Below, piece after piece: positions 9,598 to 63,650 of a stretch of 64,000 nucleotides of DNA (its first letter is position 1; every line of letters begins with the position of its first letter). This stretch comes from Aspidiotus rigidus (taxonomy: Eukaryota; Arthropoda; Insecta; Hemiptera; Diaspididae): NCBI GenBank assembly GCA_035079385.1, contig JAVHKY010000034.1, forward strand, positions 372,001 through 436,000, written 5' to 3'. Made by a program: the position numbers and the translations under genes. The notes beneath the pieces are model-generated. The model saw nothing but the letters and a program-made list of their open reading frames with translations. It was not told the DNA's origin and did not search any database.

Positions 9598-10254
9598 TCA
9601 AGGCTTCATAAACATAAGCGAACAAATGTTGCGCGCATTCTGTGCCCACATCGCGCATGTATAGACTGCCGAAACTCCTTTCATTCGATTGGAATGAAGT
9701 TTCTGCATCTTTTTCTCTGAAATAAAATCTCCTTTCTCCACGTATACATCAACAATGCCAACATTCCAAGTTACACCGTTCAGATAAACTGCTTTTTTTG
9801 TTGTTGGACACTGGCAAAGCCGAACTTCTTCACGAAGGCGCAATCTTGATGATTTCACAGCGTACTTTTTCATCGGTTGGGCCAATGTACCTTCGGCGAA
9901 CGCAATTCCGTTGAATTCGAATACTTTCTCATAGACAAGACATATTCACAAGCACGTCGTAATTGTGGCTCAGTTTCCCAACCACAAAATTCCTCCACGG
10001 TTTCTCCATTCGGGTTCTGAGGTGGAACTGGAAGATGAAATGTGTATCAATTATATTGAGCTGCTTAGGGCATTCTTCTAAAGTAGGTAAAGATTTTTAG
10101 AGCAGTGAGAGTTGGAACAATCATAATTCTTCGTACCTTCAATAATTTCAAGGACGCCGTTGATATTGAACTTTTTCCATGGCTTTGACTCGGAATAAAT
10201 TCCATTCAGTTGAATAATAAATGAAACTAGCGGTATCAAGTTGAAGCACTTCAT
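9598..10254 (-). pseudogene. Cysteine-rich secreted family, copy A, broken
   Basis: Exon 1 is 10254-10137: a start codon, a hydrophobic signal (NLIPLVSFIIQL), then the family ESK/ESR cut region, ending in phase 1 at GAAG|GTA. Exon 2 is 10027-9598 after a CTTCCAG acceptor; the intron is 109 bp. Exon 2 keeps EEFCGWETEPQLRRAC, PMKKYAVK, LCQCPTT and DVYVEKGDFISEKKM. A one-base loss or two-base gain near 9935, just after the RRAC block, throws it out of frame. The C-terminus also lacks the paired-cysteine tail. It is most like copies B and C. An assembly error could mimic the frameshift but not the lost tail. Confidence 0.8.
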
Positions 10255-10386
10255 TATGGAATTAGATGGGTTTTCGAATGATGAAAAATCGGGATCGAAT
10301 GATTATCTGAGAAAAGTCAAATTTCAGACAAGAAAGCAATTTTTTTCGACGCCCTATAATTCTAGTTTTTCATTTTAACTGAGCCG

Positions 10387-10407
10387 TGTGATAGTACAAG
10401 TGATAAA
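10387..10407 (-). promoter_or_regulatory. Conserved upstream element of copy A
   Basis: On the minus strand this reads close to TNACCACTTGTATCATC. The same element lies 100-190 bp upstream of the ATG of eight family copies. Copy A has a slightly diverged form. Its role as a promoter element is inferred from conservation and position only. Confidence 0.45.
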
Positions 10408-10569
10408 CCTAAAATACATAATGATTTTCGCATCATGGCACTAAAACAAATATTTACACACACGCAACTTCAAGATACCAGATACGGCTACCCGAATTAG
10501 TTGAGAAGATTTTCAATTTTTCTTTAAATTTTATTTTCACGAGCTGTCAGCTAGACTACTGGGGTTATT

Positions 10570-11810
10570 CAGCTATTGAGTAATTATGTTATTACTTAGA
10601 AAGGCAGTAAGGAAGGTGAACTTTTTATAAATTAATGTTGAGTGGAATTGATGGAGACATTCAAGTGTTGGAGTGAAAGTTGGCCAGCTGTGGGGATGAA
10701 TACCAGGAGACGAGGATTTTTTTTGAGACGAAGGCGTTTGTTGATGGATTGATTCTTTCAAACTGTGTTCCATGATGAGTGAAAGGTGGTGATTTTTACA
10801 GTTCAGGGATGAACGGGGGAATTATTAGTCATCCGAGTGAAGGAGGTAGCTTGTTTGGTGGCTTGGTCAACAGCGTCATGTTCGGAGAGGTCGAGGATCC
10901 ATATATAAAAACTAATTTGGGTGGAATTAATTCGATCTGTCGCCGAAAGAGAAGGAGGCCTGGGGCTCGAGATTTACGTAGGTATAAGAAAGATACATCG
11001 ACCGATGTTTTAGTCCACGGATCGTCACTCTGTTTTGTCGCCCCCCAATATGCGGTCCGTAAGGAAGGTGAACTTATTATAAATTAATTTGAGTGGAATT
11101 AATGGAGACAATTAGGTTTCTTTAAATGTTGGCGTACCGGTTGTGGGGATGATGACAAGGAGACGAAGGAGTTTGTTGATGGATTGATTCTTCCAAAGTG
11201 TGCTCCATGATGAAAAAAAGGAAGTGATTTTTATAGTCTAGGGATGGGCGGGAGAATTATCAGTCGTTCGGGTGAAGGAGGTAGCTTGTTTGGCGGCTTG
11301 GTCAAGAGCGTCATGTTCGGAAATGTCGAGGATCCATATGAAAATTTATTTGGTTGTTAATTGAGTTAGTGCGAAGTAGGAGGAGAATGCTTTGTATGAT
11401 TGGGTTAGAATTGTATGGGTCTGTAAGGGAGGGGAGAGAGAGAGAGAGAGAGAAATTTGCCATTTGGGGGTAATTGGGAAAGGTGAGAGTGTGGTTAGGT
11501 GGTTAGCCGAGTAAATGTCAGCAAAAAGACGCTCGATGAGTGGAGTGTTAACATGTGTGGTGATATAATCGATACCTATTGAGAAAAGTAAAACACTAAA
11601 CACTTTGCTTTGAGAGACTCCGTTCTGGACCAAGAGAGGGCAGGAAGTTATTTCATGGATTCTTACTAAAAGGGTTCTTCATTAAGATAAGTTTTCAGAA
11701 TATTTAAGAGGTTGCATCGGAGACCAATTTCGTAGAGTCTAGCCAGACTCGAGGAAAAGCTTCCTGGGTCGAAAGAGGTGGAGTATAGGCAGGGTTTGTT
11801 GATCGAACAC
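10570..11810 (-). mobile_element. Decayed LINE with RT and RNase H remnants, locally duplicated
   Basis: In minus-strand order, about 11770-11640 reads RLYEIGLRCNLLNILKTYLNE and 11633-11346 reads NGVSQSKVFSVLLFSIGIDYITT followed by a FAD(D) block. This matches RT motifs of an I/Jockey-like non-LTR element. Downstream, SEHDAVDQATKQATS (about 10890-10850) resembles the C-terminal end of a LINE RNase H (GNExADxLAK). That end occurs twice, at 11350-11059 and 10912-10608. Between the two copies lies a short PLE scrap (10960-11040, plus strand, YKKDTSTDVLVHGSSLC). Stops are frequent. Confidence 0.6.
11430..11453. repeat. (GA)n microsatellite
   Basis: A GGGGAGAGAGAGAGAGAGAG run inside the decayed LINE RT. 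Confidence 0.8.
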
Positions 11811-12825
11811 TACAATCAGGTTCTTCCATAAAAACGCAGATTTGTTTAAAGTTTTTCTTTCAGCCAAAACGCAGCTCGTATTTCTCACATTAAAGAAAAA
11901 TAATGACTGGGATCGGACTTTTAATATGATATTGTGGTATAGAGAGGGTCAACTAAGATTTATGAGCGTGCTTTCGATATCCAGTTAGCATCCTTCAAGA
12001 TAAGCCGCCTCAACATTTGGCGAAGGTCTGTAGGCAGTTTTCGTCGAACACCAAACTTCTCTTCCCTTTTATGAAAAACTGTCAAAGTTGATGGATGATC
12101 TGCCTTTTTGGCTGGATTTGGCGGGACAGCAACGTTGCGTTTATTTTATGGTCACTATATGCTCGTTTCGACCCCAGTGACCGAGAGGTTTATTTAACAA
12201 TCAGAAGGACACAGATATATTTTTACTGCTCGCCGGTCGCCCCTGTATTTTGGAGGTCCATGTCATCATTCGCCTTTCCGATTCGGAGAAACGTAATTGG
12301 AGTAATTGTTTGTGCTCCGTTAATGGTACGTAGATTGTATTGACTTTAAATCGTTAGTAACCCACCCTACGAGATCGGCAAAATGGCTGGACATGTGCAC
12401 CTCTCTGGACATTCTTGGATTAATATTAAAGCAGCATTACGTCTGCAGTGGATCGTATAGATCACAGTTCTTTTGTACTCCCTCGAAGGTGGAAGGAATT
12501 CATGAACCGCTTTACTGCTAAAGTACTGTTGAAAGTGACACAATCGTTTGCACTACATTCATAATTCAAAAAACTGATCTCGACTTCTCTGTATTGAACT
12601 CAGACCACTTCCATTACGCCAGCCTTCGTAAAAAGCTCCGCCCATGGATACCCTATTTTGAGGAGGTAGGCTTGACTATGATTGTCTTAATGGAGGTTAT
12701 GAATGAGGTAACAGAAATGTCGATGCAAAATAAAGTTTCGTTTAATGAGTGCGGGCAAAGTCTAAGCGTTTTTTCTTAAAACTGGGTCGAATTCTTGCAC
12801 GAACAAAATTTTCATAATTTAAGTA
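11810..12825. other. Non-coding, nothing recognised
   Basis: Open frames at 12095-12343 and 12594-12779 show no family motif, signal peptide or splice context. No repeat boundaries were found. Confidence 0.4.
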
Positions 12826-13151
12826 CTACGAGAGTAGCCAATTGTATTGACAACAATTTGTTCGTGCTACTCCCTCATTCACGAATCAATTTTACTCGAC
12901 AACTCGATCCTTGTACGTGAAGTGACAGTTTCCTCAAATCGTATAAACTCCACCTCATAGTCTTCTTTGTACAAAAGCACCATTTCACGCATCGAAAAAA
13001 GAAAAATACATCATAATGTTTGATTATCATCATCACATTCTATGAATTTGCTGTCGGATTTGAAACATCTTTTTCAATAGCAACAATCGTGCTCTTAGAA
13101 CTAGAATAAAAATAATGGGTTTTAGTTTTCCTGTGTATGGAAAACGCAAAG

Positions 13152-14242
13152 CTAAAATGTATTGCAACAATTATTGCATGCACAACAGGTCAAACAATAC
13201 GCATGATAGCATAAACAGGTACCACATCGTTCGCAGCCTGTTTGTTCACCAGAATCTTTATTCCAAAAGTGGACTTTCTTCGATTTCAGTTTTTGCATCT
13301 TTTTCTCTGAAATAAAATCTCCTTGATTCACGTACAGATCGACAATGCCAACATCCGAAGTCACATCGCTCAAGTAAACCTCTATTCTTGTTGTAGGACA
13401 TTTACAGAGCCAAGCATTTTTACCATGCCATAATCTTGACTTTTTCACAGCATACTTTTTCATCGGTTGGGCCGATGTATCTTTAGCAAAATAAATTTTG
13501 TTGAATTTGAATACGTTTGCCTGTAAGATGTCCTGACACGCACGTCGTACTTCCAGCTCTGTTTCCCAGCCACAAAATTCGAATTCATTTTCTTCATCAT
13601 TCGGATTTTGAGGAGGAACTGAAAATAAAACATCGATTATGTACTTAAGTACAAGTTTCTTTTCTGAATTTGTTTCGACCAATATGATATTGTTGAGGCT
13701 TGCAAAGGTGCAGCCATTCACAACATATACTGCCGAGGTCAACAAAAGTAAACGTTTGTATCCATTTATACTGTGAGAGGAAATGTTAACCTTAAAAGCA
13801 ACGGTCAAAAGGAGTCAAAGAGAGAATCTACTCGATGGATGATTCTTTTGAAGGCGAAATATAATGATCTAACAGTAGGGCCTGATAGGGTAGTGGTTAT
13901 TTCACACGTCAGGGAGACAAGAGGTAGCAGGTTCGATTCCCACTCACGCCAGGCAATTTTTCCTCATATTTCCTCTTCCGTCCTTATCTAGAATCTACTT
14001 GAACGAATCAAGTCGAAGAGGAGATGAATAAATGCACAAGTGTAGCAAATCGACTCCAAGATGAAACGACAAAGATTTTCAACGTTATGTGTTAAGAAAA
14101 ATTACTTTTCCACTATGAGGTAGGTACCTTCAGAAATTCCATGGACCGTGTTGATTCTATAATTTTCCCATCCCCTCGACTCGGAATGAACTTCATTCAG
14201 ATACCTAACGAGTATAGCAAGGAACACTACTTTCAAGTTCAT
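13152..14242 (-). CDS. Cysteine-rich secreted family, copy B (193 aa, two exons)
   Basis: Exon 1 is 14242-14128 (115 bp). Its start MNLKVVFLAILV gives a signal peptide with likely cleavage near VHSES. Exon 2 is 13618-13152 (467 bp), acceptor TTTTCAG, donor GAAG|GTACC, phase 1. The 509 bp intron holds a tRNA-like SINE. Mature blocks: EFEFCGWETELEVRRAC, the QANVFKFNKIYF strand, AQPMKKYAVKKS, WLCKCPTT, DVTSDVGIVDLYV, GDFISEKKMQKL, and a tail with GCERCGTCLCYHAYCLTCCACNN. I do not recognise the family and assign no function. Disulphides or metal binding are possible from the many cysteines. The frame is open throughout, unlike its tandem twin C. Confidence 0.85.
13879..13951 (+). repeat. tRNA-like head of a SINE, inside the intron of copy B
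   Basis: GGCCTGA, TAGTGGTTA (A-box-like) and GGTTCGATTCCC (B-box-like) lie at tRNA spacing, but the T-stem and acceptor stem are degraded. The paralogous element at 20053 is better preserved. It lies antisense to the gene and was present before the 12.8-24.1 kb duplication. Confidence 0.55.
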
Positions 14243-14344
14243 AATTTTTAATGCAAAATCAAAGAGAAATTCACAAACAAAATTTTCTCGGCACAATTGT
14301 CTACGTTTTTCGGCATCCTGGTCTTTTCTTTAACTTACTCGCAT

Positions 14345-14361
14345 GGTAGCACATGTGATGA
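14345..14361 (-). promoter_or_regulatory. Conserved upstream element of copy B (diverged)
   Basis: About 100 bp upstream of the copy B start, this matches the family upstream element (minus-strand ...CACATGTGCTAC) with several changes. A second block shared by A, B and C lies slightly further upstream (14385-14470). Confidence 0.35.
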
Positions 14362-16732: not shown

Positions 16733-18012
16733 AACGACAAATACCACAATGGGTACATGAACGAAAACCGACAAATACTACAAAGAGTAAATGTACGTAG
16801 GGAAATTGCAAAAAGCCGCAGAAATAAAACAAACAGAGTACCGCAAGCACTTTCGGCTAAGAAGCCATCAACGGGCGGAGAATAAAAAGCGACTGACAGA
16901 GGAACAGTCGACGACAGAAAACAACGGTGAGGTCATGATTGAACTAACGACTCCTCGCGATGTGAGTCATACTCGTAAATTAGTTCAACCAATCCCTCGT
17001 CCGGAATATACCTGTTAAGTACGGTTACGTTATCGCTGTTCAGGTGACGAATGATTTCGATATTTTCCAACGCCATTCTTTTTAAATACGATCTTTCTCC
17101 ATGGAAGAGGGTCTCTGACCCCTCTCTGAAACTGTGGCCACAGGTGATCAAATGGTCCGCGAAGGCCGATTCCCCCAATTTGCCCTTTTTCCAGGCCTTT
17201 AAGTGCTCAGCCACTCTTATTTGGAGCTGGCGACCGGTCTCACCTATGTAAATTCCGTCACAGTCGTTGCACCTTATACTATAAATCCCACTCCTCTGTA
17301 AAGGTGGTGTAGGGTCTTTCAATCTAACGAACAGGCCCGTTGGGTTCCCTCGTTTCGGAGGTCTTTATGTCGAGATTCGAGGCTGACCTCTCTTCCTCGG
17401 GCCAGTCTTTCTTAAATCATGTTCACTATTGGCACAGATATGTAGATGACGTGCTATGTGCGTGGACAGGTCCCCAAGAACTCCTTGGTGAGTTTCTCAA
17501 GTATCTAAATGCTCAGTTCCCCTCCAAAAAGTTTACTTTGGAGGTAGGTAATTCTACTATAAACTTCCTGGACCTTACCATCTCCGAAAGAGATGGGGCC
17601 CATGAGTTCGCAATATACAGAAAAGATACTTCGACCGATATTGTTGTCCACGGCGCGTCATTCTGCCCTGAAAATATCGAAATCATTCGTCACCTGAACA
17701 GCGATAACGTAACCGTACTTAACAGGTATATTCTGGACGAGGGATTGGTTGAACTAATTTACGAGTATGACTCACATCGCGAGGAGTCGTTAGTTCAATC
17801 ATGACCTCACCGTTGTTTTCTGTCGTCGACTGTTCCTCTGTCAGTCGCTTTTTATTCTCCGCCCGTTGATGGCTTCTTAGCCGAAAGTGCTTGCGGTACT
17901 CTGTTTGTTTTATTTCTGCGGCTTTTTGCAATTTCCCTACGTACATTTACTCATTGTGGTATTTGTCGTTCTCAATATGTCGGGCCGTAACTTGCAGGAA
18001 CGAATCGATTCA
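16733..18012. mobile_element. Fold-back Penelope-like insertion (PLE-3) with 13 bp target-site duplication
   Basis: Two 5'-truncated PLE copies sit tail-outward. The minus strand 17322-16933 encodes a GIY-YIG domain (GIYSIRCNDCDGIYIGETGR). The plus strand 17340-17670 encodes an RT end (HRYVDDVLCAWTGP, INFLDLTI), which then jumps to the PLE C-terminal tail. Arms 16785-17067 and 17670-17952 are inverted repeats about 283 bp long and nearly identical. The insertion is bounded by ATAAGAATTTGAG (16720-16732 and 18013-18025). The paralogous site at 23195-23210 is empty. It belongs with PLE-5 and PLE-8. Confidence 0.88.
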
Positions 18013-19366: not shown

Positions 19367-20400
19367 CTAATGTAATAAACCGCAACAATTATTGCAACAA
19401 CCACAGGTACACAAAAACGCATGATAGTATAAACAGGTACCAAATTTTTCGCAGCCTGTTTGTTCACCAGATCCTTTATTCCAAAAGCGGACTTTATTCG
19501 ATTTCAGTTTTTGCATCTTTTTCTCTGAAATAAAATCTCCTTGATTCACGTACAGATCGACAATGCCAACATCCGAAGTCACATCGCTCAAGTAAACCTC
19601 TCCATTGGTTGTGGGACATTTACAGAGCCAAGCTTTTCTACTATACCAAAATCTTGACTTTTTCACCGCATACATTTTCATCGGTTGGCCAAGGTATCTT
19701 TTGCAAAAAAAATTCTGTTGAATTTAAATACATTTACCTCTAAGACACCCTGACAAGCACGTCGCACGTCCAGCTCTGTTTCCCAACCACAAAATTCGAG
19801 TACATCTCCTTCATCATTCTGATTTTCACGAGGAACTGAAAATAGAACATCGATTATGTACTTAAATACAACCATTCACAACCTATAAGCCTTTAAAACT
19901 TGGCAACGTTGCTAAGATCAACAAAAATAAACGTTTGTATTAATTTGTACCATGAGAGGAAATTTCAACCAGAAACTGTCAAAAGGAATCAAAGAGAGAA
20001 TCTATTCGATGGCTGATCCACCTGAGGGTGAAATACGATGATCTAATCTTAGGGCCTGAGAGGGTAGTGCTTATCACATTTGTCATGGAGACGAGAAGTC
20101 GCGGGTTCGATTCCCGCTTGGGCCAGGCAATTTTTCCTCATGTTTCCCTAGAATCTACTCAAACAAATCGAGTCGAAGACGATATGAATAAGTACAAAGT
20201 ACATGACTTTTCTCTTCAAGCGCTCCAAGATGAAACGATGATAAAAGATTTTCAACGTTATGTGTTAAGAAAAATTACTTTTCCACTATGAGGTACCTTC
20301 AGAAATTTTATGTACTGCGTTGATTCTATAATTTTCCCATCCCCTCGACTTGGAATGAACTTCAATCAGATATGTGATGAATATAGCAATGAATACTACT
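19367..20400 (-). pseudogene. Cysteine-rich secreted family, copy C, broken twin of B
   Basis: Exon 2 is 19835-19367 and is close to copy B (VLEFCGWETELDVRRAC, MKMYAVKKSRFW, WLCKCPTT, DVTSDVGIVDLYV, tail CGCCNNCCG). It has a one-base deletion in the run of G before PMK (about 19680; B has GGG, C has GG). Exon 1 ends at 20297 with an intact GAAG|GTACC donor. Homology is lost at about 20401, and the segment holding the start codon and the beginning of the signal peptide is deleted. Two independent lesions make this a pseudogene. Confidence 0.85.
20053..20125 (+). repeat. Well-preserved tRNA-like SINE head in the intron of copy C
   Basis: The dimensions match a tRNA exactly. The acceptor strands GGCCTGA and TTGGGCC pair over 7 bp with two wobbles. 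The T-arm is perfect (GCGGG, TTCGATT, CCCGC). A 5-bp anticodon stem closes a 7-nt loop. The loop lacks U33 (it has A) and the D-stem is poor, so a working tRNA is unlikely. Its conserved flank (about 20000-20170, shared with unit 1) suggests a tRNA-derived SINE. Confidence 0.6.
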
Positions 20401-20481
20401 AAAAATTCGCGAAAATAATTTTCTCGGCACAACTCTCTACGTGTTTCCGTAACCTGGTCTTCCCTTCAACTTAGTCGCGTG

Positions 20482-20936: not shown

Positions 20937-20972
20937 CTCTTCTCTCAGTTTTGACGAATTCACACCTTTCAA

Positions 20973-21303: not shown

Positions 21304-21305
<2 letters not shown>

Positions 21306-24141: not shown

Positions 24142-24967
24142 TCACAAATTTAGTGTACCGCAGCAACCGCAGCAAAAACAACACGTAAAAGGATACGCCA
24201 CAATTAAACAAGTGGTCGCGGCTCTCTCAAAGCCATTTTGGTCTTTGAAATTTTTGCCCAAATCGAAACATTTTTCGTAATTTTGCTTGGATAAAATTTT
24301 TTTCATTTTCTTATCCGAAATAAAATCTGCTTTCTCCACGTACACATCCAAGAGGCCAACAGATGAAGTCACATCTCTTAGATAAACTGGATAGTTGGTA
24401 GCCGGGCATTTGCATAGCCAAACTGCTTTGCCAAACCAGAATCTTGATTTTTTAACCGCGTACTTTTTCAAGGGTTGCACCCCACCATGTTCCTCAAACC
24501 CAATACCATTGAACTCAAACACTTTGGCCCGCAAGATATCTCGACAAGTACGCCATACATGTGAACGAGTTTGCCAACCACAAAATTCTTCAAAGATTTC
24601 TTCAGTACGGTTTTCATAAGAAACTGGAAAAATAATATTTTATTTATTCGCCGTCGCGTGTTCTGCTCATAAATTTTCTGTGGAAACAAGTTGGAGGTAT
24701 GTGCAAACAAGAATGCAGTCGTTTGATAAATTTACTTACGAGAAGCTTTATTAATATCATCAAGGAAAAAACAGATTCATTGTTTTAGCATAAGCAACCT
24801 TGTATTCTTCTTAGAAAGGAGAGAAATTTTAGAGAACGATTCTTTATACCTTCAGAAATTCTATAAGCTGCATTTATACGAACTTCATTGTACTCTCGGG
24901 ATGCTAAATGAACTCCTTCAAGATTGATGACGAGTAGAGCAAGAAGTAGGGCGCCGAAGTGTACCAT
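24142..24967 (-). CDS. Cysteine-rich secreted family, copy D (199 aa, two exons)
   Basis: Exon 1 is 24967-24850 (118 bp), beginning MVHFGALLLALLVINLEGVH, a strong signal peptide. The donor is GAAG|GTATAAAG. Exon 2 is 24623-24142 (482 bp) after TTTTTCCAG; the intron is 226 bp and the junction codon is Val. Blocks: EEFCGWQTRSHVWRTC, the AKVFEFNGIGF strand, QPLKKYAVKKSRFWFGK, LCKCPAT, LLDVYVEKADFISDKKM, and a hydrophobic tail YPFTCCFCCGCCG. The total is 600 bp including the stop and is open throughout. Compared with B it has a charged KCFDLGKNFKDQNG linker before the tail. Secretion is well supported; function is unknown. Confidence 0.87.
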
Positions 24968-25113: not shown

Positions 25114-25119
25114 TCAAAG

Positions 25120-41234: not shown

Positions 41235-43207
41235 CGAAGGAAAAGAGTACGGTTTTACGTAGACACGCAGTAAAAATATACTAAGTCTTCGTAGCAAAAT
41301 TAAGAACTCTGAGATCACTCTCGCCAAGGCCGACAAAGGGAAGTCCATTGTCCTCCTCCGTGATAATGATTACGTTAATAAGGTTGAAACCTTCCTAAAA
41401 GAAAATGGTGCTGTACTAAAGCCGAAATTCTCGTTCGATTCTTACAATCGTCGTATACGAAAAGAAATTTCCAATTCTAAATTCATCATCCCAGAGGAAA
41501 AGAAAAAGTACCTCTAAGTCAGTAATCCTAGTGTACCTAAATTATACGGTCAAATTAAAGTTCATAAGCCAAACGCTTTAATACGGCCTGTTGTCGCCTT
41601 CTACACAAGCCCCACATTCCTATTATGCAAATTCCTTAATTCTTGGTTCCATGAAACATCTGGCTTCACTTCTCGTTTTGTCGTCAAGAACTCCACTGAA
41701 TTAATTACCAGTCTTAGCGACATCCAACACCTTCCTCCTACGGCAACTTTAATCTCTTTCGACGTTACCAGCTTGTACACCAAGGTACCTCTGGAATTCA
41801 CCATTAACTGTATACGTGCTCTTCTACAACAGTCCAACATCTCTGAAGCTGCCGCCGATGAATTCGTTCTCGTATTGAGATTGTGCCTCCAACCCAACAT
41901 CTGTCGATTCAACAATGCTGTTTACCAATTTGATAACGGTGTCCCTATGGGCTCGCCTATCGCTGCTACGGTCTCTGAGATCTTCCTCTACCACTTGGAA
42001 ATCTACCTGCACAACAATTCACCGTACATGTTGTTTAACGTCCTATTTTGGAAACGTTACGTAGACGACGTCTTTTGTATCTTCCAAGGATTGGATTCTT
42101 CTCTATCTTCGTTCCTCCGTCACCTCAACTCTTTTCATCCCGATATTAACTTCACCATCGAAGTTGGAGGTAAATCTTTAAATTTTCTCGACCTAACCAT
42201 CACCCTCAACCCTCACGCCGACTCTTCATCTCCCATCTTCGACTTCAATATTTATCGAAAACCAACGGCCACCGATACAACGATTAATGGGCACTCGTTC
42301 CACTATGCCCCTCACAAAAACTCAGCCTACCTCTTCATGATCAACAGGTTATTAAATGTTCCTCTCAGCGCTACCAACTTCTCTCGTGAGATCGATACGA
42401 TTAAAACCATCGCGCAAAACAACAACATACACCTTCCCATTGATAAGATCGTCGGTAGGAAGATACACGCGCGAACGATGTCTCAAATTTCAACTTTATC
42501 CTGCGAAGAACCGCCCACTGGGAATTATGTTCGTCTTCCTTTTCTTGGTGGCGCCTCATACAAAATTGCTTCTATCATAGGTAAAGCTAACCTCCGAGCT
42601 GCTTTCTACTCTCCCTCCACTCTACGTGCTCTCTCCAACGTCAAAGGTCCACCTCCCTCCATTTGGGAGAAGAGTGGAGTTTATAAACTCGAATGTGCTA
42701 ATTGTGAGGTCAAATACATTGGTCAAACATCCAGATCTTTATCAACTCGTGTCGACGAACATATTTCCTCCTGGAAAGGACACAACACCACCAGATTTTC
42801 TCATTTTGCTGACCATCTGCTGAAACTTAACCACTCCTTCTCCTTTAACAACGTTACTCTTCTTCACCAGGCCTATCGCCCTTCGCTCCTGCGGAAGTTG
42901 GAAAATATCGAAATACGCAAGCACATTAATAAGAAAGAAAAACTAGCTAATGATATCATTCTAATGAGTAATACTGACATAGTGGCACGTGTTTACAAGT
43001 AGCATTTTTCTTATCTTTAGAATATTGTATACTTTTTCGATCTTCGCTTTTGTTCTCAGTACTGTTCAACTGATGATGCGATGACGACCTATTCACCGCG
43101 AAACTGCAGTCTCACAATAATATATTTTTACTGCGTGTCTACGTAAAACCGTACTCTTTTCCTTCGTATAATGACGCGCAACGACGGCCATATAACCGTT
43201 GATTTTA
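41235..43207 (+). mobile_element. Penelope-like element PLE-6, almost open, 14 bp target-site duplication
   Basis: It is flanked by TTAAATTGCTTTTA (41221-41234 and 43208-43221), with inverted ends of about 48 bp (41233-41280 and 43121-43168). One frame runs 41281-43002: KADKGKSIVLL, KLYGQIKVHKPNALIRPVV, SFDVTSLYTKVP, VPMGSPIAATVSEIF, KRYVDDVFCIFQG, LNFLDLTI, YRKPTATDTT, then a GIY-YIG domain (GVYKLECANCEVKYIGQTSRS). A single in-frame stop (TAA, 41515-41517) is the only lesion. This is the youngest-looking RT of the window by frame integrity. It is inserted in the gene remnant of the 4.7 kb element. Confidence 0.93.
43066..43112 (+). ncRNA. Hammerhead-like motif at the 3' end of PLE-6
   Basis: CTGATGA, TGCG...CGC (short stem II with a long loop), GAAA, then the self-complementary ACTGCAGT and C. 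The core and a helix III candidate are present; stem I pairing is poor. Probably a degenerate PLE ribozyme. Confidence 0.5.
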
Positions 43208-47147: not shown

Positions 47148-47656
47148 GACGTCGTGGGATCGGAAAAAACCTCCTATGTGGCAAAAATAAAATTTTACAG
47201 GAGAAGCAAAAAACTGATTATTTTGTGAAAAGAAGGCCAAACTACTTCGGAAACGTCTCATTAACTGTGGAAAAGCTTCTTTGGTACAGTAGTAACAAAA
47301 AATTTTCAAAATTCTCTAAAATACGGCGGTATTGGGCAATAAATGCACATAGGAGGAATTCCTGGTCCTAAATATTGCACGTCATGAAGAGCTTTGCTCT
47401 GCACACACGAGGAATTCCTGGCCCTAAATATTGCACATAAGAGGTTTGCTTCGCACATAGAAGGTATTCGAGACCACATTTTCTGGATGGTGCACATAGG
47501 AGGTATTCAAAACCGCTCCTACCGGCGTAATTTTGAACTTAGCACATAGGGGATTTTCCCAGTCGATGCGCCTTGAAATTCCGCGTCCAACCATATAAAG
47601 AAGTGCATTAATTTCTCAAAAAATGGCACATAGGAGGTTTTTTCCGATCCAACGAC
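47148..47656. mobile_element. Non-autonomous TIR element with repeated CCTCCTATGTGC motif, copy 1
   Basis: The ends GGATCGGAAAAAACCTCCTATGTG and its reverse complement form TIRs of about 30 bp (CGTCGT(T)GGATCGG...). Inside, CACATAGGAGG-like motifs recur at about 47348, 47455, 47490 and 47545. A second copy lies inverted at 50793-51243. The open frames in it are not genes. Confidence 0.75.
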
Positions 47657-47689
47657 GAAGAGTCATTTGGGATGATGGATTCTGTGTGC

Positions 47690-47893: not shown

Positions 47894-48509
47894 CATCGCT
47901 AATCCTTTTTAACACGTCCAGGGAATTAGCGTCCGAAGTCGCAGCATCGCCTATGCAAACTGAATACAAAGTAGTTGGACATTTGCAGAGCGAAACTTTT
48001 TTACCAAACTTAAATTTTGATATTTTTACCGTATACTTCTTCATCGGTTGGACTTCTTTACCTTCCTCGAACCACCTCAAAATATCCCAGCAAGCTGAAC
48101 GTACTTCTGCCTCAATTTCCCAACCACAAAATTCTCCGACTGCATCATCTTTAGTCGGCTAAAGACCTGGAACTGGAAAATGATGCTCTGATAAGTCACT
48201 TTTTCTATTTACTGAAATATCAGATATATAATCGGGTGTACATCAATGCCAGGGCCAGTCTTAAGCATAATTGAGGTAAACAAGTATAATTATACCATCG
48301 AGCCACATCGCTAAGATTTTAACAACAACCTGCCTTCAGTCACCGCCTCACAGAAAAAAAATATATATATTATTTTTTATCATGAAATACCTTCAGAAAT
48401 TTTATAAGCTGGGGACGTATAGAATATTGTCGTATTTCCTTGATTCAGAGTGAACTCCGCTCAGATCGATCATCAATAAAACAAGAAGTGCTATCTGGAA
48501 GTGTACCAT
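47893..48509 (-). pseudogene. Cysteine-rich secreted family, copy G, truncated by a PLE
   Basis: Exon 1 is 48509-48391 (119 bp, one base too long, so its end is out of frame) with MVHFQIALLVLLMIDLSGVH signal. Exon 2 starts at 48172. It has an early stop (PGL then TAA/TAG), EFCGWEIEAEVRSAC, a deletion of the FEVWxFNDIxF strand, PMKKYTVKISKF, LCKCPTT and DANSLDV. It then runs into Penelope sequence at about 47893, losing the DVYV and cysteine-tail regions. Three or more lesions: clearly a pseudogene, nearest to copy H. Confidence 0.88.
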
Positions 48510-48811: not shown

Positions 48812-49615
48812 TCAGATTTTATCGCAGCAAAAGCAGCAATAACAGCAAGTAGAAGGATACACTAAAACACAACACGATGTTGCAATGCGCTCGCAGCAGT
48901 CTTGGTCTTTATAATCTTGAGTTATATCGAATCCACCTCCTCGACTTTTATTTTCCTTCGATAAAATTTTTAACCTCTTTTCCCATGTAATGAAATCGGC
49001 TTTGTCAACGTACACGTCCAAGGAATTAGCTTTCGAAGTCGCAGCATCGCCTATGTAAACTGAGTACGAAGTAGTTGGACATTTGCAGAGCGAAACTTCT
49101 TTACCAAACCAAAATTTTGATATTTTCACCGTATACTTCTTCATCGGTTGGACTTCTTTACCCTCCTCGAACTTAATATCGTTAAATTCCCAAACTTCAA
49201 ATCTCAAAATATCCCGGCAAGCTGAACGTACTTCTGCCTCAGTTTCCCAACCACAAAATTCTTCGACTGCATCATCTTTAGTCGACACAGGACCTGGAAC
49301 TAGAAAATGATGATCTGTTAAGTCACACTTTCTATTGAAGAAGTGTCTAGTACTAGCATCGTAAATACCGTCGGGTGTACATCAATCCCAGCGCCATACC
49401 TTCATGCCTCGATGCTAAGATTTTAACAACTACATACCTTCAGTCACCATCTCCCAGAAAGAAAAAAATAGGTAAATAATTTTTTACCACAAAATACCTT
49501 CGAAAATTTTATAAGCTGCGGTCACGTAGAATACGTTATATTTCCTTGACTCAGAGTGAACTCCATTCAGATCGATCACCAGTAAAACAAGAAATGCTAT
49601 CTCGAAGCTTACCAT
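48812..49615 (-). CDS. Cysteine-rich secreted family, copy H (201 aa, two exons)
   Basis: Exon 1 is 49615-49498 (118 bp): MVSFEIAFLVLLVIDLNGVH signal, SESRKYNVFYVTAAYKIFEG. Exon 2 is 49299-48812 (488 bp); the intron is 198 bp. Blocks: VEEFCGWETEAEVRSAC, FEVWEFNDIKFEEG, QPMKKYTVKISKFWFGKE, LCKCPTT, ANSLDVYVDKADFITWEKRL, RGGGFDITQDY, DCCERIATSCC and tail YPSTCCYCCFCCDKI. The GGG insertion before FD sets the G/H/I subfamily apart. Open throughout. The upstream in-frame ATG at 49708 is ignored because only the 49615 start aligns with the family. Function is unknown. Confidence 0.87.
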
Positions 49616-54010: not shown

Positions 54011-54818
54011 GATGTCACTGCACAACGAAGTGCAATACAAAAAGATACCTGTGCGTGAAACGTCGAAGATCCTTCATCCACGAATTCTGTCGTCGGCCTA
54101 TCGATCTTTTTCCTTCAATTTTACCTTCCATAACTATCCGCAGGATCTCGTATTTTTCTCCTCTTATAACATGGCCAAGGCATCTCGGCTTTCTCTCTTT
54201 GACCGCGTTCAGCAGCTCCGGGGATTTCTTTACTCTATCGAGAACTTCCTTGTTCGTTACTTTCTTAACCCATGATATTCTGAGCATCCTTCGGTACAGA
54301 TAAAGTTCAAAGCTCTCGATTCGTTTACCCAGGGCCGGATCCATTGTCCAGGACTCGCATCCGTATAACAAGACGGAGTAGACATAGCACTTTAGGAGTC
54401 TAAGTCGTATTCCCAAATTTAGTTCTCTTCTGGTAAATAAGTTTGTCATCTTTATAAAAGCTGCTCTCGCCTGTTCGATACGCGATCTTATTTCTTTCTT
54501 CGAAGTGCAACTTTCATCAAGAATTGTACCAAGATATTTGATCGATGTTACTTGCTCTATCTCTTCTCCCTCGATTTTTATGGCACAGATGGCTTCTTTC
54601 TTCGTGAATGCTACAACTTTTGTTTTAGAGCTGTTAATTGTGAGTCCCAGTTCTTCGCTACAATTGACGATATTGTCCATCATTCTCTGCAGCTCAGCTT
54701 GACTATTTGCCAAAATCAGGCTGTCGTCCGCGTAACGGATGTTATTAATGGTAGTACCGTTTATCTGAATTTTTCCGTCCCTTTCCTCCAAGGCTTTGTT
54801 GAATATTTCCTCTGCGTA

Positions 54819-56359
54819 AGGTTTAAATTATCCGCTAAGGTACGAATCATATCTGAAGGTGAGAAATAAAAGTGCAGAAACGCAAAAAGAAAAAATTTCT
54901 AATTAATTTTTAAAAATTAATACACGAATTACATTGCGACCGGTTTCGGAATAGCAAGTATACCATCAACGGGCAGAATACAACAGAACAATGACAAAGA
55001 CAATAGATATTTTGAAAAACAGTTACTCATCATTGAAAAACAGTTACTCATTCATTGAACATGTATGAAATAAACGGATTAGAAAGGACATTAGATAAGT
55101 CGTTTAGTAGTTTCTCTGGTGAGTTGTGAAGCGCTTTCGTGCATTCAATATCTTCGAGACTGTTAAGGAGTCTACCTTTCGTAGCAGGATGCAGTATCGA
55201 TATAGCTGTAGAATTTATGTCGTGACCAGAGTTGATGCAATGAGAAGCTAAGGCAGAATTTGAGCCATCATCCCTTTTGTGCTCTTTGTAACGATCAGAA
55301 AACGATCTCCCTGTTTGACCAATGTAGAACGAATCACAAGAACAAGTTATTTTATAAACGCCACATCTTTCCATGAGCGGGACAGGATCTTTCAAGTTAG
55401 TCAAGTGAGAGAGAGTGCAAATAGGATAAAAGCCGACTTGAAACCCATGCTTCTTGAGGGTCTGGGCAATCCTGTAAGATACATGACCGATGAAAGGAAG
55501 CCTAGCCCATTTCTTACGACGAAGAGAGGAATTCGCCTGAACAGGAGAACTATGAACCTGAGCACACTCTAAAAGCTTTTTGTTAATTTTCTTTGAGATA
55601 ATTTTATCAATATCCAATCTGAGCCCGTTGAAGAAGGATAGGAATTTTATAGCGTCAAGTTCAGAGTTGAACGCACTACTAGATAGAGGGATAGAAATTA
55701 AACGATGTATTAGCGCCATAATACCTGCACGTTGGTGAGTGTGAGGATGCAGGGAGCCGCCATCTATCAGCACGCCTGTGAAGGTAGGCTTCCGAAAAAT
55801 AGAAAAAGAGATGGAGAGAGATTTGCTATCGTGGGCCAATGACACATTAGGAGTTAGGGAGAGCTGTAGGTCGAGGAAAGATAGGGTCAAGGGGCCCACC
55901 TCGAGAGTGAATTTTATAGATAGGAATCCGGTGTTTAAGTAAGAGAAAAATTCTTGAAGAGCTGTTGAAGAACCAGACCAGACACAAAAAATATCGTCCA
56001 CATAACGCTTCCACTCCAGGATGTTGGAATGGAAAGGATTCGCGGGAGACATGATCTTACTTTCGAAATGATCCATAAAGACGTTCGCAACAAGGGCTGA
56101 CAGAGGACCTCCCATAGGGAGACCATCCTTAAATAAATAAATCGAACCTCGAAAAGCGCAGAAGTTCTTTTTTACAGCGAGCGTGATTAGCTTTTTGAAT
56201 TCACAAACAACCCTGTAATCAACTCCTTTCTTAGACAAAATGTCACACATTATATTGACAGCGCACATGACAGGAATATTAGAATACATGCTAATCATAT
56301 CAAATGAAGCCAGAGCGGCAGAGTCTTTTTACGTGTCTGCACTTTTATTTCTCACCTTC
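54819..56359 (-). mobile_element. Penelope-like element PLE-7, nested in the LINE, 14 bp target-site duplication
   Basis: It is flanked by ATTTCCTCTGCGTA (54805-54818 and 56360-56373), with inverted ends sharing GAAGGTGAGAAATAAAAGTGC. One frame, 56298-55048 (416 codons), has no stop: SFDMISMYSNIPV (motif A), GLPMGGPLSALVANVFMDHF, KRYVDDIFCVWSG, LSFLDLQL, FRKPTFTG, KWARLPFIGHVSYR, then GIY-YIG (GVYKITCSCDSFYIGQTGRSF). It is truncated on the 5' side just before motif A. Its degenerate hammerhead (54937-54978) supports membership of the ribozyme-bearing PLE group. Confidence 0.93.
54937..54978 (-). ncRNA. Degenerate hammerhead-like motif in PLE-7
   Basis: The minus strand reads GTTGATGG, a 6-bp stem II with one mismatch (GGTATA/TATTCC) and loop CTTGC, then GAAA and self-complementary ACCGGT plus C. 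One core change (CTGATGA to GTTGATG) probably weakens cleavage. Confidence 0.5.
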
Positions 56360-57470
56360 ATTTCCTCTGCGTATAAATTAAATAGAAGGGGGGGGCAAAA
56401 CACATCCCTGTCTGACTCCTTTCATGATGGTGGTTTCCTCCGAGCTTGCTCGTTCCATTATCACCTCAGCAGTCTGATTCCAATACAGTTGGCTAATAAC
56501 GCCCTGATCTCTTCGGTCCACAATAGTTCTCTTCAGTATTTCTAGCATTTTTTCATGCCTGACACAGTCAAATGCTTTTCGATAATCGATGGCACAGGCA
56601 TATACTGGAACATTCATATCGCGGCATCGCTGTATAAGTGTGCGAACTGCAAATATGGCCTCCCGACATCCCATTCCTCCTCGAAAACCAAACTGTGTGT
56701 TTCCAATGTGGTCCTCACACCTTTTGTATATTCTCGCATGTATTATTTTGAGGAATACTTTCAGCGCGTGCGACATGAGACTGATCAGCCGATAATCATC
56801 CCATTTTGTGGGGTTCATTTTCTTTGGAAGGGCTATGAAGGTTGATTTTAGCCATGTGCAGTAAATGTTATCAAATATCCGTGTTAGTTCTTTCAAAGTG
56901 ATTCCATCTTGGTCTGCTATGACTCTGAGTACTTCTGCGTGAACACCATCGGGTCCAGTTGCTTTTCCATTTTTCTGTCGCCTGATTGCGCATATCACTT
57001 CCTCCTTTGTTATTGAAGGTCCGTCTTCACTGTACTCCTGGTATTTTTCTGGTGGATTGGGAGCTCTGTTGTCGCCAAAAAGCTGGCTAATGTACAGTTT
57101 CCATGTCTGTAGCTTCTCGTTCAGCCGCTTACAATATCTCCATTTCTGTCGAGAAGTAAGCTCCCATTGGATCTTCTGTAATTACCAATCACTTCTCTCA
57201 CTTTTTTGTGGAGATTAAACAGGTCGTGTTTCTCCTGCAGTTCTTCAATTTCATCGCATCTTTTATTCCAATATTCCTCCTTCGCTTCTCTGCACATTCT
57301 TCGGATATTTTTATTTATTTGTCTGTATTCATTTTTATTATCTTTGACTAGTCTCCTATCCTCCATTAATTCTAGTATTTCGTCCGTCATCCATTTCTGT
57401 TTTTCACTATGGTTGACTGTACCGACGCTCTTCTCTTGTACTTCGCTGATTATATCTTGGATGTAAAACG

Positions 57471-58628: not shown

Positions 58629-58782
58629 TTCCAACACCAAATACATGAGAAGTACAAAAAATATTCGGACGTAGAATGTGGAAATAATGATAACACTCGA
58701 AGAGGTCCAAATTTATATGAGAACGCAACGTTTCTTATGGTCTCCAGTTGTCATTAGAATGTCATTTTTCTGCTACTCGTTT

Positions 58783-58799
58783 GATGATACAAGTGGTGA
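58783..58799 (-). promoter_or_regulatory. Conserved upstream element of copy I
   Basis: GATGATACAAGTGGTGA, 155 bp upstream of the start. Confidence 0.5.
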
Positions 58800-59063
58800 C
58801 ATCGAATTGACGCGAGATGAAGAGAAATACTTGTATTTACATATTATTTTCAGAATTATTTTTCTAAAAACAAACTTCATTTGACCTCTTTTTCCGTACG
58901 CAGTTCCAACGTCAAAATTTTGTATTCCATGTTTCTTACTAATGCTCTGCCTCTAATTTCTGGATTTTCTTTCGGTCACATGTCTTTACTGATGCTTCTT
59001 CCCTCCCCAACTCGTAATATTCATTTATGACTTGGTTATGAAAGGAGAAAAGGAAATCTCGAT

Positions 59064-59540
59064 GTGTGTCCATATAATTATATATTTTACTGTGATCCAG
59101 AAATGGAACATCTCGTGAAAGAGAAAGGCTCAGCTCTCAGAAAGTGGATGAGTTCAATGAAACCAGAGGACAGAATGAATTACCAGAGAAAATCTGAATT
59201 ACTCAAACGAAAATCCAGTCAGATCAAAGAGAAAGCTAGGATCAGTTTACCACTTTTCTTGAGCAAGAAACATACAAGTTGCGACCCAAAGATCAACTGA
59301 GGGATCGAGGTCGACTCAAATTTTAATGAACGAGTACAACTACCAAAGCTCAAACTTGAAGAAGCATAAGAATTCTACCTTGATTTATAGACAACATACT
59401 GCAAAACAGGAAAAAGAAGAAGAAACCGATCGGAAGGAGCGTGGATTCGAAATAGAAAATACTGAAATTACAATGAAGGAATTAAAGGATGCTCTAAAGA
59501 AATCTAAGAACGCAAGAGCTCCAGAGGAGTAACATCAGTT
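59064..59540 (+). mobile_element. Possible LINE fragment (linker and start of RT)
   Basis: 59064-59300 reads LVKEKGSALRKWMSSMKPED, MNYQRKSELLKRKS, like the region between endonuclease and RT of LINEs. 59326-59532 ends ITMKELKDALKKSKNARAP, the usual lead into the first RT motif, followed by a frame break. Short but consistent in order and strand. Confidence 0.45.
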
Positions 59541-60390
59541 ATCAAAAGAATAAAGAAATATCAGAGGAATCGAAGAGATCATATGTCGAAAGATCACCCA
59601 GAAAATTCCTGTAATACACACCAGCGGGGAGAAGACTGACAGGATGTCCGAAAAGAAGAATGCTGTATACATCAGGATCTTCAGAGGGAACAGACCATGC
59701 ATCACCTGTGCAGACAGGCCACTAGGCCTACCGCTATTTGGAAACGAAAACGACGACGACACAAATACAGCATAATACGAATCAATTTTTTCGTCTTCGT
59801 CAACTTTCGAGCTTGGAAACACGCGTACGACGCGAATATACAAACCATCACCCTAATTAGAAGTCTAGCCCTACTTCCTGTGAAAGCCCAGCAGCGCGAT
59901 CCATCTTGAAAATACTCTACGTACAAAACAGATTTGGTGAGAGCCTTTTCTTCACTCTTCTTAGCTCTCGCAGTTGAGTTTCGACTCGTGGTCAGCGCTG
60001 AAACAATGAGACTATTATTGGCTTCTCCAATGGTGTCTTTTCGCGTTACTAATTTTATTTTCCATTCGTTTTACCGTTCGCTTATCCGTAGCGGGAGACA
60101 TTTCTTAGTCTTCCTTCTCGATCTGCGCGCCGAATCAGTAGGAGACGCTCCTGCTCCTATCCGCATTTCTTCAACTTCTTCTGGCTCATCCGATCTGTCC
60201 GCTGAATCAGCGAAAGACGCTCCCTTCGACTTCTAGCCCTATCCAGCTTCTTCCTTTCTTACTCCTTCCCGTCTATCTTTTACTCGTTCTCACTGAAACC
60301 GCGGGACAGTGCTTTTCAGATCGTCTTATAAGTTTTCTGTTTTCTCCCCCTTCCCTCGACTAGGTTCAAGTTCGAGACACTCGAGTTGGT
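59540..60390. other. Non-coding, nothing recognised
   Basis: The open frame at 59934-60236 has no recognisable motif. A short internal repeat (GAATCAG..(A/G)AGACGCTCC) occurs at 60134 and 60205. Confidence 0.35.
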
Positions 60391-60394
60391 GTAT

Positions 60395-60740
60395 CTAGAA
60401 TTAATAATTTATTTAATCAAGACTTCCATACCAGTTACGATCCCAACTTTGATGGAGTCACGTCGTAGGGTATCCAAACGTTTTTCGCAGTCTTCTGGTA
60501 GGTGAGTGCCATTGCTCTATCCGCAGCGCACTCATCAACAATTTTCACCCGAGTCACCGTCAAGAAGTTGGAAAAATGTTGACCTTGAGACATGACCTAT
60601 ATCCATGGACCTACAAGTTCTCCTTCGGAATTTATCTTCGTGTAATAAAAGCTTTTATACTAATCACGATCTTAACATTGATGGAGTCGCGTCCAAGGCA
60701 TCCTAACCTCTTCCGTAGTCCTCGAAGTAGGCAAAAGACA
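60395..60740. repeat. Two imperfect direct repeats, about 245 bp apart
   Basis: 'CTTCCATACCAGTTACGATCCCAACTTTGATGGAGTCACGTC' (60422-60463, quoted with changes) recurs as 'CTTTTATACTAATCACGATC', then TAACATTGATGGAGTCGCGTC (60650-60692). Both are followed by an 'a.ccaa.cgt/ct..tcgcagtc' phrase. Possibly tied to the PLE-8 terminus. Confidence 0.5.
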
Positions 60741-60863
60741 AATTAATACGTTCTTGTATGTTATTATTATGGTTGATCATTTCGATAAAAAGAGGTGTAC
60801 TCCCGAAGGAGTAACGAATTATATTATAAACCACACTGAATAGAGTCGCTAAGTACTTTCAGT

Positions 60864-62499
60864 TTAAGAATCATCTTCGGAGCATGAATGAAAGCGACTA
60901 ATCCAACAACAACGAAGATAGAGAAACGAACTTGAGGACCATGATTGAACCAGCGAGTCATCGAAGTGTGAATCATCCTCATAGACTAGCTCAACCAGAT
61001 CCTCATCAGGAATATACCTGTTTAAGACGGTGAAGTTTTCATTATTCCGGTGACGTAAGATTTCGATATTTCCCAAAGTCATATGTTTCAAGATGAGTTT
61101 TCCCTATGGAGGAGGGTACCAGACCCCTCTTTGACCCTGTGGCCACTTTCGATAAGGTGATCGGGAAAGGCCGACTCAACCAAGTTACCCTTCTCCCATG
61201 CTTTTTTATGCTCATCAATTCTTATTTAGAGCTGACGGCCGGTCATTCCTATATAAACTACAGGGCAATCGTTGCAGACTATGCTGTAAACACCAATCCT
61301 CTCGGCTATAGAGGAATGGGGTCCTTTAATTATACAAATAAACTTTTTACGGTGTTAGTATTATAAAATGCCGGCCGGAACCCGAAAGGACTGAGCGCAC
61401 GGTCCAACTTCAACGAAAATCTACCCAGGTAAGGAAGTCTAATCCAACGATTCCTCCTATCTAGGTGTGAATCCCTGGGGAGGAAGGTGGTAGAACCGAG
61501 GCTTTTTCTGGTAAGCCTCTTACGGACCATTAAGTCGATAAGTACACTCACTTGATTCACTCTAGCCAGCCCAGTTCCTTTTGGAAAGCGTCCTCACTCA
61601 AAGGAATATGAGTCAGACGATGGATCAAACTACTGAAGGTAGCGATCTTATGTGCAACTGGACATCGGTCGACGTTTCTTTTCTATAGATTCTAAATTCA
61701 TGGACGCCACCTCTAACGAAAATGGACAATTCCAAAAAATTTATTAATGAGCCACCAACTTCCAGGATGAATTTTATGGAAGGGTATTGGCTATTCAAGT
61801 AAGTGAGAAACTTACAAAGGAGTTCTACTGGACCGGTCCACGCACAAAGTATGTCGTCCACATATCCATGCCGGTAAAAGACATGTTTTAACATCACCTG
61901 GCCTGAGGAAAACGAATCGATCTCAATTTGGACATGAATATCTCAGATATCAGAGAGCCCAAGGGAGAACCAATGGGGATCCCCACCTCATCCGGGAACG
62001 CGAAAAATTTCCCTTCAAATTTGCAGAAGTTTGGGGACCAACAAACCCTCAGAAGACCCAAGAATTCCGCCAACTCCTCATGAGGGACACCAGATTTTAC
62101 AAGCAAGTCGCCCGTATGTTGGATACTAACAGCCTTAGGGATGTGAGGAAATAATCCTAAAATATCAAAGGAGCATAAGGTTATTTCCGAGGGAAGGTTT
62201 ACGTCCTTCAACATGTCCGCCAAAGAGCCCTAGTTCTTTACTGAGTAAGGGGAGGTACAATCTACTCGTGATTCAAACCATCGATCTATAAATTTAGCTA
62301 ATAAGTAAGTTGGTGACGAGACAAACGACATTGGAAAATCTTTTTTATGTACTTTGTACCGGGTTAGGCTCCAAAATGGCTTTCTTTGTGAGAAGACTCT
62401 TGATAATAAATTCACTTTTGTTGATGATTTGCCCCACCTCTTTAACAAACTGAGGGAAACAGAAAAGGCTATATGACGGTGGAATTTTAGTGTGTTCAA
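60864..62499 (-). mobile_element. Penelope-like element PLE-8, decayed
   Basis: In minus order: 62499-62230 N-terminal part ending VSSPTYLLAKFIDRWFES; 62223-61894 SFDILGLFPHIPKAV, WSPNFCKFEGKFFAF, GIPIGSPLGSLISEIFMSK; 61897-61625 GYVDDILCAWTGP, SLINFLEL and YRKETSTDV; 61560-61330 WIRLPYLGRFS; about 61325-61110 GIY-YIG domain (NDCPVVYIGMTGRQL with a stop); 61091-60864 tail IEILRHRNNENFTVLNRYIP. At least four frame changes. It matches PLE-3 and PLE-5 most closely. Confidence 0.88.
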
Positions 62500-62916
62500 T
62501 ACGACGTCAGTCCGAAGAAATTTGTGATGGAATTATGTCCACCTCGATGTCTAGATATTGAGGCAAGAAGAATAAAACAGTGAAAGTCGACCGGCCTTTG
62601 CTGCAGTAAATATTGATATCTTTCTCATGCATGAATCAAACAGGCTGAAAAGACGCTGGGCCTTTGAGACCATCATCGAGATCTTCCAATAAGGAAATGT
62701 AATATTGTGAACAACTATAATATACAATAAATCAAATCGCCTGAGAACAAATTTTCCATCATCCTTCCGTGCGATTCTAATCTTTCCAGCAACAGCGAAC
62801 GTGCCACCAAAATCTCTCAATAGCCTTACTGTCGTAGAATATTTTATTAAGATCATCTGATGATTTAGCGAAGTAAGATTAAATAAGTCAGCAATCAATT
62901 TTCACTCTGTAACGCT
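62500..62916. other. Non-coding, nothing recognised
   Basis: The minus-strand frame 62898-62551 has no signal peptide or family motif. Confidence 0.35.
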
Positions 62917-63650
62917 TCAAGTCAGGCAATAGATAGCGCCACAGAAGCCTCCCGATAAAACACAACTTAAACAAAGTGCGTACGAGCCACATGTTGGTGG
63001 ATCTGTGTATTTAATTTCCTGCAGCCCGTTTTTTTCGACTTTGTTGTGCTTTCCTTTAATTTTTCGCATTTTCCTTTGCGAGACGAAGTCGGCCTTCGAC
63101 ACGTACACGTCGACAAGACCAATACTGGAAGTCGAATTTTTCAGAAAAACTTCGTGTCCCGTTGTTGGGCATTGGCACAGTGAAATCGCTTTCTCAAAAC
63201 CGAATTTTGACTTTTTAACGATGTACTTTCTCATCTCTTGAGATCGTTCTTCGAATTTGAACCATATACGGTTGTATTTGAATACTTCAAAATCTACAAT
63301 ATCCCGACAAATGGACCGTAGTTCCCACTCAAATTGCCAGCCACAAAAACTTTGTTCGGCTTTTTCATTGGAATTTTTCTCTGAAAAGGCGAAATAAGAC
63401 GAAAGTGTAGGAGGTCATCTTAAATCGATGGGGACTAGCAAAATCTAGCCTGCATGGAGCATGGCAAGGAAACCCAATCCCTCCATAAATGACACACGAA
63501 AGTATTGACTTTGACTTCATTGAATGAATTACCTTCAACCATTTTATAAACTGGAGATATCCTAAAGCTTGACATGATTCTCGATTCGCAATGTACTTCA
63601 TTCCGATGAGAAATGAAAGTTAGAAAAATGATTACGTTCAAAAATATCAT
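62917..63650 (-). CDS. Cysteine-rich secreted family, copy J (193 aa, divergent)
   Basis: Exon 1 is 63650-63533 (118 bp): MIFLNVIIFLTFISHRNEVH signal, CESRIMSSFRISPVYKMVEG. Exon 2 is 63380-62917 (464 bp) after CCTTTTCAG; the intron is 152 bp, phase 1. Conserved blocks remain (QSFCGWQFEWELRSIC, DFEVFKYNRIWF, EMRKYIVKKSKFGFEK, SLCQCPTT, LVDVYVSKADFVSQRKM). The C-terminus differs: TCGSYALCLSCVLSGGFCG replaces the paired-cysteine tail. It is open throughout despite strong divergence, so the core, rather than the tail, defines the family. Function is unknown. Confidence 0.85.

Follow-up and report, generated by a model that had tools for sequence, protein, structure and literature searches.

A tandem array of ten genes for probably secreted, cysteine-rich proteins in Aspidiotus rigidus

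Organization of the array

The stretch of DNA analysed here, referred to below as the window, comprises 64,000 bases of the insect Aspidiotus rigidus (contig JAVHKY010000034.1 of assembly GCA_035079385.1, positions 372,001 to 436,000), with 37% G+C and no N. It carries ten paralogous loci, named A to J in order of position, all on the minus strand and spread over positions 9,598–63,650 of the window. They belong to a real, constrained and apparently lineage-restricted family of probably secreted, cysteine-rich proteins. The loci were located by tblastn of nine copies against the window, at approximately 9.6, 13.2, 19.4, 24.1, 30.1, 44.8, 47.9, 48.8, 57.9, and 62.9 kb. The array is not a product of chance, since the matches between copies have E values from about 1e-8 (C against the remnant of G) down to 1e-103 (E against F). 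A six-frame profile search with the seven open proteins returned the same ten loci together with exon 1 of every one of them; the next entries had E values of 0.69 (the second half of exon 1 of G) and then of at least 5.5. The array may extend past the window edge, from which J is separated by 350 bases.

Seven copies (B, D, E, F, H, I, and J) have an intact reading frame throughout and are termed open; three (A, C, and G) are broken. Each open copy is modelled with an ATG, an exon 1 of 118 bp (115 bp in B), a phase-1 intron, and an exon 2 of 464–488 bp. All the introns have GT–AG borders, and their lengths are 509 bp in B, 226 bp in D, 161 bp in E, 160 bp in F, 198 bp in H, 137 bp in I, and 152 bp in J. 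A preliminary description of this DNA had proposed ten copies on one strand with one architecture, seven of them open, and both search methods together with the seven complete gene models agree with it; a signal-peptide-like first exon, the single phase-1 intron, and the second exon of 464–488 bp that it reported are present in all seven open copies. In an alignment of the 194–200 bp upstream of eight copies, inspected by eye, no clear TATA or initiator element common to all was seen. The ten copies are as follows.

9598..10254, minus strand: copy A, broken; intact exon 1 of 118 bp at 10254-10137 with a GT donor; exon 2 at about 10034-9598, losing its frame after about 33 codons
13152..14242, minus strand: copy B, open; exon 1 14242-14128 (115 bp), intron 509 bp, exon 2 13618-13152; 193 amino acids (aa)
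19367..20411, minus strand: copy C, broken; signal-peptide-like exon ending at 20297, without an in-line ATG (its upper limit, 20411, is taken from the layout of B); exon 2 at about 19851-19367, losing its frame near 19,705-19,690
24142..24967, minus strand: copy D, open; exon 1 24967-24850, intron 226 bp, exon 2 24623-24142; 199 aa
30055..30815, minus strand: copy E, open; exon 1 30815-30698, intron 161 bp, exon 2 30536-30055; 199 aa
44751..45510, minus strand: copy F, open; exon 1 45510-45393, intron 160 bp, exon 2 45232-44751; 199 aa; with E the closest open pair (synonymous divergence, dS, 0.16)
47903..48509, minus strand: copy G, broken; exon 1 48509-48391 (119 bp, with a frame change), exon 2 cut by Penelope-like sequence at about 47,902
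48812..49615, minus strand: copy H, open; exon 1 49615-49498, intron 198 bp, exon 2 49299-48812; 201 aa
57886..58628, minus strand: copy I, open; exon 1 58628-58511, intron 137 bp, exon 2 58373-57886; 201 aa
62917..63650, minus strand: copy J, open, the most diverged; exon 1 63650-63533, intron 152 bp, exon 2 63380-62917; 193 aa

In copy G, exon 2 has suffered an internal deletion and contains a stop, and the Penelope-like sequence takes the place of its 3' end. Several near-copies of a short word around CCTCCTATGTGC were noticed by eye at 47360-47660, beside the Penelope piece that cuts this copy. Between exons 1 and 2 of copy C lies a tRNA-like match to Rfam RF00005 (20053-20125, plus strand, 32.9 bits); ARAGORN found no tRNA there despite this match, which may be the head of a short interspersed nuclear element (SINE).

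Protein organization

The open copies code for proteins of 193–201 aa with 10–15 cysteines, each beginning with a hydrophobic stretch of the signal-peptide type, as judged by hydropathy and position. The part following the signal segment, of about 173–180 aa, comprises a variable linker, a core, a spacer, and a cysteine-packed tail. In the core, CGW is followed by a cysteine 12 residues past the first one, then by (P/E)(M/L)(K/R)K(Y/F)xVKxS, LCxCP, and DVY or DLY...DF. The seven exon-2 sequences have 30 invariant columns, among them the four cysteines of the core (CGW, C, CxC) and two of the tail.

The motifs listed in the preliminary description as shared are conserved to different degrees. 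LC[KQ]CP[TA]T and [VL]D[VL]Y[VI]xxxDF[IV] are found in all seven open copies, while [PE][ML][KR]KYxVKxS is found in six (I has KF) and FCGW[EQ] in five (E and F carry YCGW). The tail motif YPxTCCYCCxCCGK, said to be present in most copies, was overstated, as its exact form occurs in two of the seven (E and I); a looser form, YPxTCCxCxxCC, occurs in five (not in B or J).

The last 30 residues hold 5–10 cysteines, a concentration matched by none of 2000 shuffles for five copies, by 5 of 2000 for D, and by 17 of 2000 for J. Such a tail could serve as a membrane or lipid anchor, either a single-pass segment with acylated cysteines or a glycosylphosphatidylinositol (GPI) signal, which would make the proteins membrane-associated. 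In all seven open copies the tail has only 0–3 charged residues in 23 positions, its KD19 hydropathy value reaches 1.77 in D and 1.91 in J, and K or R follows soon after the last CC in four tails (E, F, H, and I), as would suit an anchor. However, the hydropathy lies within the expectation from composition, with 49 to 809 of 2000 same-composition shuffles equalling or exceeding it, the KD19 values stay under the glycophorin A calibration value of 2.67, and that of B is low (0.96). A known module with a comparable cysteine-rich C-terminal tail is the cysteine-rich transmembrane module CYSTM, whose proteins are not known to have a signal peptide. No Pfam CYSTM match was found here, either in six exon-2 frames at E ≤ 1 or in three spliced proteins at E up to 10, and a membrane anchor is considered unlikely.

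Selection and conservation

The family genes are on average under purifying selection. Ratios of nonsynonymous to synonymous divergence (dN/dS) calculated by the NG86 method for the seven open copies, as averages over each pair and not per site, range from 0.22 to 0.48 in all 21 pairs, and values near 1 across the copies, which would speak against functional genes, are not seen. In the two closest pairs the excess of synonymous changes is significant: E/F has dN of 0.048 and dS of 0.163 (Fisher p = 3e-4), and H/I has dN of 0.117 and dS of 0.273 (Fisher p = 1e-3). In both of them exon 2 is the best conserved part. The identity in E/F is 0.842 in the 5' flank, 0.873 in exon 1, 0.923 in the intron, 0.948 in exon 2, and 0.892 in the 3' flank, the respective values for H/I being 0.728, 0.831, 0.825, 0.875, and 0.739. 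In 60-bp windows along E/F the core is 97–100% identical in five of six, and the windows upstream are mostly at 0.80–0.90.

The closest described counterparts in overall plan are the SSSGP and SSGP salivary families of the Hessian fly (PMC2955719, PMC2990301), which share with the array the tandem clustering in an insect genome, the signal-peptide region, the intron, and the small secreted products. The SSSGP-1 cluster comprises seven genes in 15 kb, and the mature region of the SSSGP proteins is described there as highly diversified under positive selection, with the rest of the gene conserved (PMC2955719). The present family might likewise consist of effectors or venom components delivered to a host or prey and positively selected in an arms race, as these small secreted salivary gland proteins are. 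The gross plan is alike (a tandem cluster, a signal peptide, one intron, and orphan sequence), nonsynonymous outnumber synonymous changes 4 to 0 in the E/F spacer and 4 to 0 in the H/I linker, albeit at very few sites, and the E/F intron is nearly as conserved as exon 2. The array nevertheless differs from the described SSSGP pattern in that dN/dS is 0.22–0.48 in every pair and exon 2, opposite to the SSSGP mature region, has changed least of all parts in E/F and H/I (the gappy B/D alignment being an exception). Ratios below 0.5 throughout give no sign of arms-race diversification, although as pairwise averages they do not reach single sites, and selection at such sites or a conserved effector would be compatible with them. 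The separation from the Hessian-fly families is made by their description in these sources and by the lack of any match to the array in a protein database that includes insects. The effector, venom, or immune-interface roles suggested in the preliminary description thus find no direct support, and an arms-race family is a possible explanation, albeit one on the unlikely side.

Some secreted gene products of gall wasps resemble the family in having a secretory signal and no informative annotation (PMC6855507). As far as the available part of that account goes, they differ from it in that expression data exist for them, from early-stage larvae, while the array is known from its DNA, and in that neither a tandem array nor a cysteine family is described.

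Duplication history and surroundings

An unrooted tree of the exon-2 DNA of all ten copies recovers E–F and G–H–I, each with an ultrafast bootstrap (UFBoot) support of 100, and gives J the longest branch. A, B, and C are split from the rest at a UFBoot of 79, and D joins E–I at a UFBoot of 71. Among the subgroups proposed before (A–D, E–F, G–I, and J), E–F and G–I are recovered with full support. A–D is not recovered, but the support against it, from the placement of D with E–I, is weak. The youngest open pairs are E/F (dS 0.16) and H/I (dS 0.27), and dS exceeds 1 in 15 of the 21 pairs. The designation of the family as fast-growing fits the two young pairs but not these 15 pairs, nor the three broken copies among the ten. 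Homology extends over about 1.9 kb in E/F and about 1.3 kb in H/I, pointing to expansion of the array through local duplication of units this long.

Between the copies lie mobile elements, including twelve mapped Penelope-like pieces with a total length of 9.3 kb. Two of them, 16936-17364 (minus strand) and 17328-17804 (plus strand), overlap on opposite strands, and the C-terminal ends of their proteins are almost identical. A reverse transcriptase of a long interspersed nuclear element (LINE) at 54018-57181 (minus strand) is divided in two by a Penelope-like element that lies nested within it and has the same orientation (55051-56340), and an integrase-bearing element is located at 52.7–54.3 kb. 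Of the 42 long open reading frames (ORFs) of the window, nine are family members. A Pfam domain search of ten among the other 33 gave reverse transcriptase or integrase matches for seven, two of these below the curated cut-off (E 0.032 and 7e-4), and no match for three. For the ORF at 41.5 kb the GIY-YIG match likewise falls slightly short of its cut-off. Apart from the family, no host gene was recognised in the window, the Pfam domain search covering these ten of the 33 non-family ORFs.

Search for relatives

The family matched no domain convincingly. In Pfam, six exon-2 frames (E ≤ 1) and three spliced proteins (E ≤ 10) gave nothing near a cut-off, and neither did seven members in NCBIfam. 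A sequence-profile search of the PDB yielded no significant match to any chain, the best being flavivirus NS2B at E 0.26. The same seven members searched against PHROGs hit ten families, each with one member only and with the best E value of 0.0024 (a phage family of unknown function); these hits are taken as chance. The statement of the preliminary description that no known domain matches is upheld by the Pfam, NCBIfam, and PDB profile searches.

A search of 5.8 billion proteins found no relative of copy F at E ≤ 1 (10 candidates scored) and none of the family alignment at E ≤ 10 (926 candidates). This search is word-based, candidates being required to have exact five-residue words in common with the query, so that distant relatives may be missed. 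The same collection gave 404 matches for the Penelope-like protein encoded at 41,518-43,002; among the 120 listed, all 17 bearing the name of an organism come from insects, at 33–38% identity, and the genera listed include Schistocerca, Onthophagus, Parnassius, Harmonia, Coccinella, Diabrotica, Bemisia, Aedes, Pyrocoelia, Bicyclus, Malaya, and Episyrphus. At this identity the elements agree, indirectly, with an insect host. Within the limit set by the five-residue words, the missing match for the family is informative because the database searched includes insect proteins of NCBI and UniRef. Among prokaryotic contigs 100 pattern matches were obtained, none of which was confirmed as a relative. 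In a text search with six short peptide motifs only TCCYCC appeared among the matches listed, and it can also be read as degenerate DNA. No description of such a family was recognised, by title or abstract, among the papers listed in a literature search whose coverage lay outside subscription papers and preprints, so that one may have been published there.

Polydnavirus gene families can be tandem, two-exon, and cysteine-rich, and the array could in principle be derived from a polydnavirus or be another endogenous viral element in the insect genome. What points that way is the weak local resemblance to flavivirus NS2B, with E values of 0.43–0.76 for copy H alone and of 0.26–0.88 for the profile, of which 38 positions are covered. 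These values are not significant, the score hardly changes from the single sequence to the profile (13.5 to 14.1 bits), and the resemblance is treated as chance. The NS2B-like part corresponds to 25 residues of the core of copy H (48956-49030). In addition, none of the 22 pattern matches among the IMG/VR viral contigs was confirmed as a relative, and a Foldseek comparison, made with a poor model, found no fold match at E ≤ 0.001 in the BFVD collection. A viral derivation is accordingly regarded as very improbable.

That model was produced by AlphaFold2 from seven exon-2 rows, with a mean predicted local distance difference test score (pLDDT) of 49.1; a second one, from ten rows (seven cores with three pieces of A and C), reached 41.8. 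The first model has three short helices, four strands, and a last helix, and with it Foldseek returned 320 matches in BFVD and 99 in PDB at E ≤ 10, none of them at E ≤ 0.001. The order of helices and strands is of a kind that a far-diverged branch of a known secreted family might show after its sequence signal was lost, for example one with a cystatin-like or RNase-like small alpha/beta fold, and a cystatin scaffold ranks second among the PDB folds, though with a score that carries no meaning (E 0.79, TM 0.25). Against such an origin, the Pfam, NCBIfam, and PDB profile searches gave no sequence match, no fold match has an E value below 0.29, and a model of pLDDT 49 cannot decide; neither the cystatin nor the RNase-like fold gained real support from any search. 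A diverged branch of a known family would thus be rather doubtful. Profile searches and Foldseek with the predicted structure, both proposed earlier as checks of the novelty of the family, linked it to no described one.

Interpretation

As a kind, the family is familiar, being one of the insect orphan secreted families; as a sequence family it is without a convincing relative in the collections searched. Its members are somewhat more probably than otherwise exocrine proteins with a disulfide-stabilised core and a cysteine-cluster tail, which are exported and whose dose was raised by tandem duplication. The protein would enter the secretory pathway and then be exported, and its four core cysteines would form two disulfides holding a small alpha/beta core. 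Additional disulfides could be formed by the tail cysteines, perhaps linking one molecule to the next or to a different secreted protein. A stable partner would be bound by the conserved core while the other parts drift faster. Tandem duplication would have raised the dose of an exocrine product (for example saliva, venom, or a secretion of the gut or of a gland) and let it diverge modestly. Delivery via saliva, venom, or gut is plausible.

Several observations weigh against this reading of the array as constrained genes for exocrine proteins. The case is built on DNA sequence, secretion being judged from hydropathy and position, and the fold and the disulfides are guesses because the structure models are poor (pLDDT 49.1 and 41.8). 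The dN/dS ratios of the 15 pairs with dS above 1 are rough. The contrast between coding and non-coding parts is modest: the E/F intron (0.923) and 3' flank (0.892) exceed exon 1 (0.873), exon 1 of H/I (0.831) is about equal to the intron (0.825), and B/D shows a higher identity in that half of the intron which aligns (0.739, with 283 gap columns) than in exon 2 (0.682). Along the E/F gene dS is 0.316 in exon 1, 0.089 in the core, and 0.512 in the tail, and gene conversion could explain part of the core conservation, since dS of the core is below that of exon 1 and of the tail. Finally, poly(A)-like hexamers past the stop number 8 in seven 300-bp stretches, which is no enrichment over the strand-wide rate of 1.2 per 300 bp.

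A bolder version of the exocrine reading, considered quite improbable, is that a new family with a new small alpha/beta fold and an unusual extracellular CCxCCxCC tail is delivered by the insect into another organism, where its core would bind a conserved target of that host and its tail would cross-link the protein once delivered. Orphan secreted families are numerous in insect genomes, and a few of them prove to act on hosts, prey, mates, or microbes.

With seven intact, constrained paralogues and a clear four-cysteine core, the family is compact and tractable for structure determination and an expression survey. Should it turn out to be a salivary or venom product, it would represent a class undescribed in the collections searched, with a core that is conserved rather than hypervariable.

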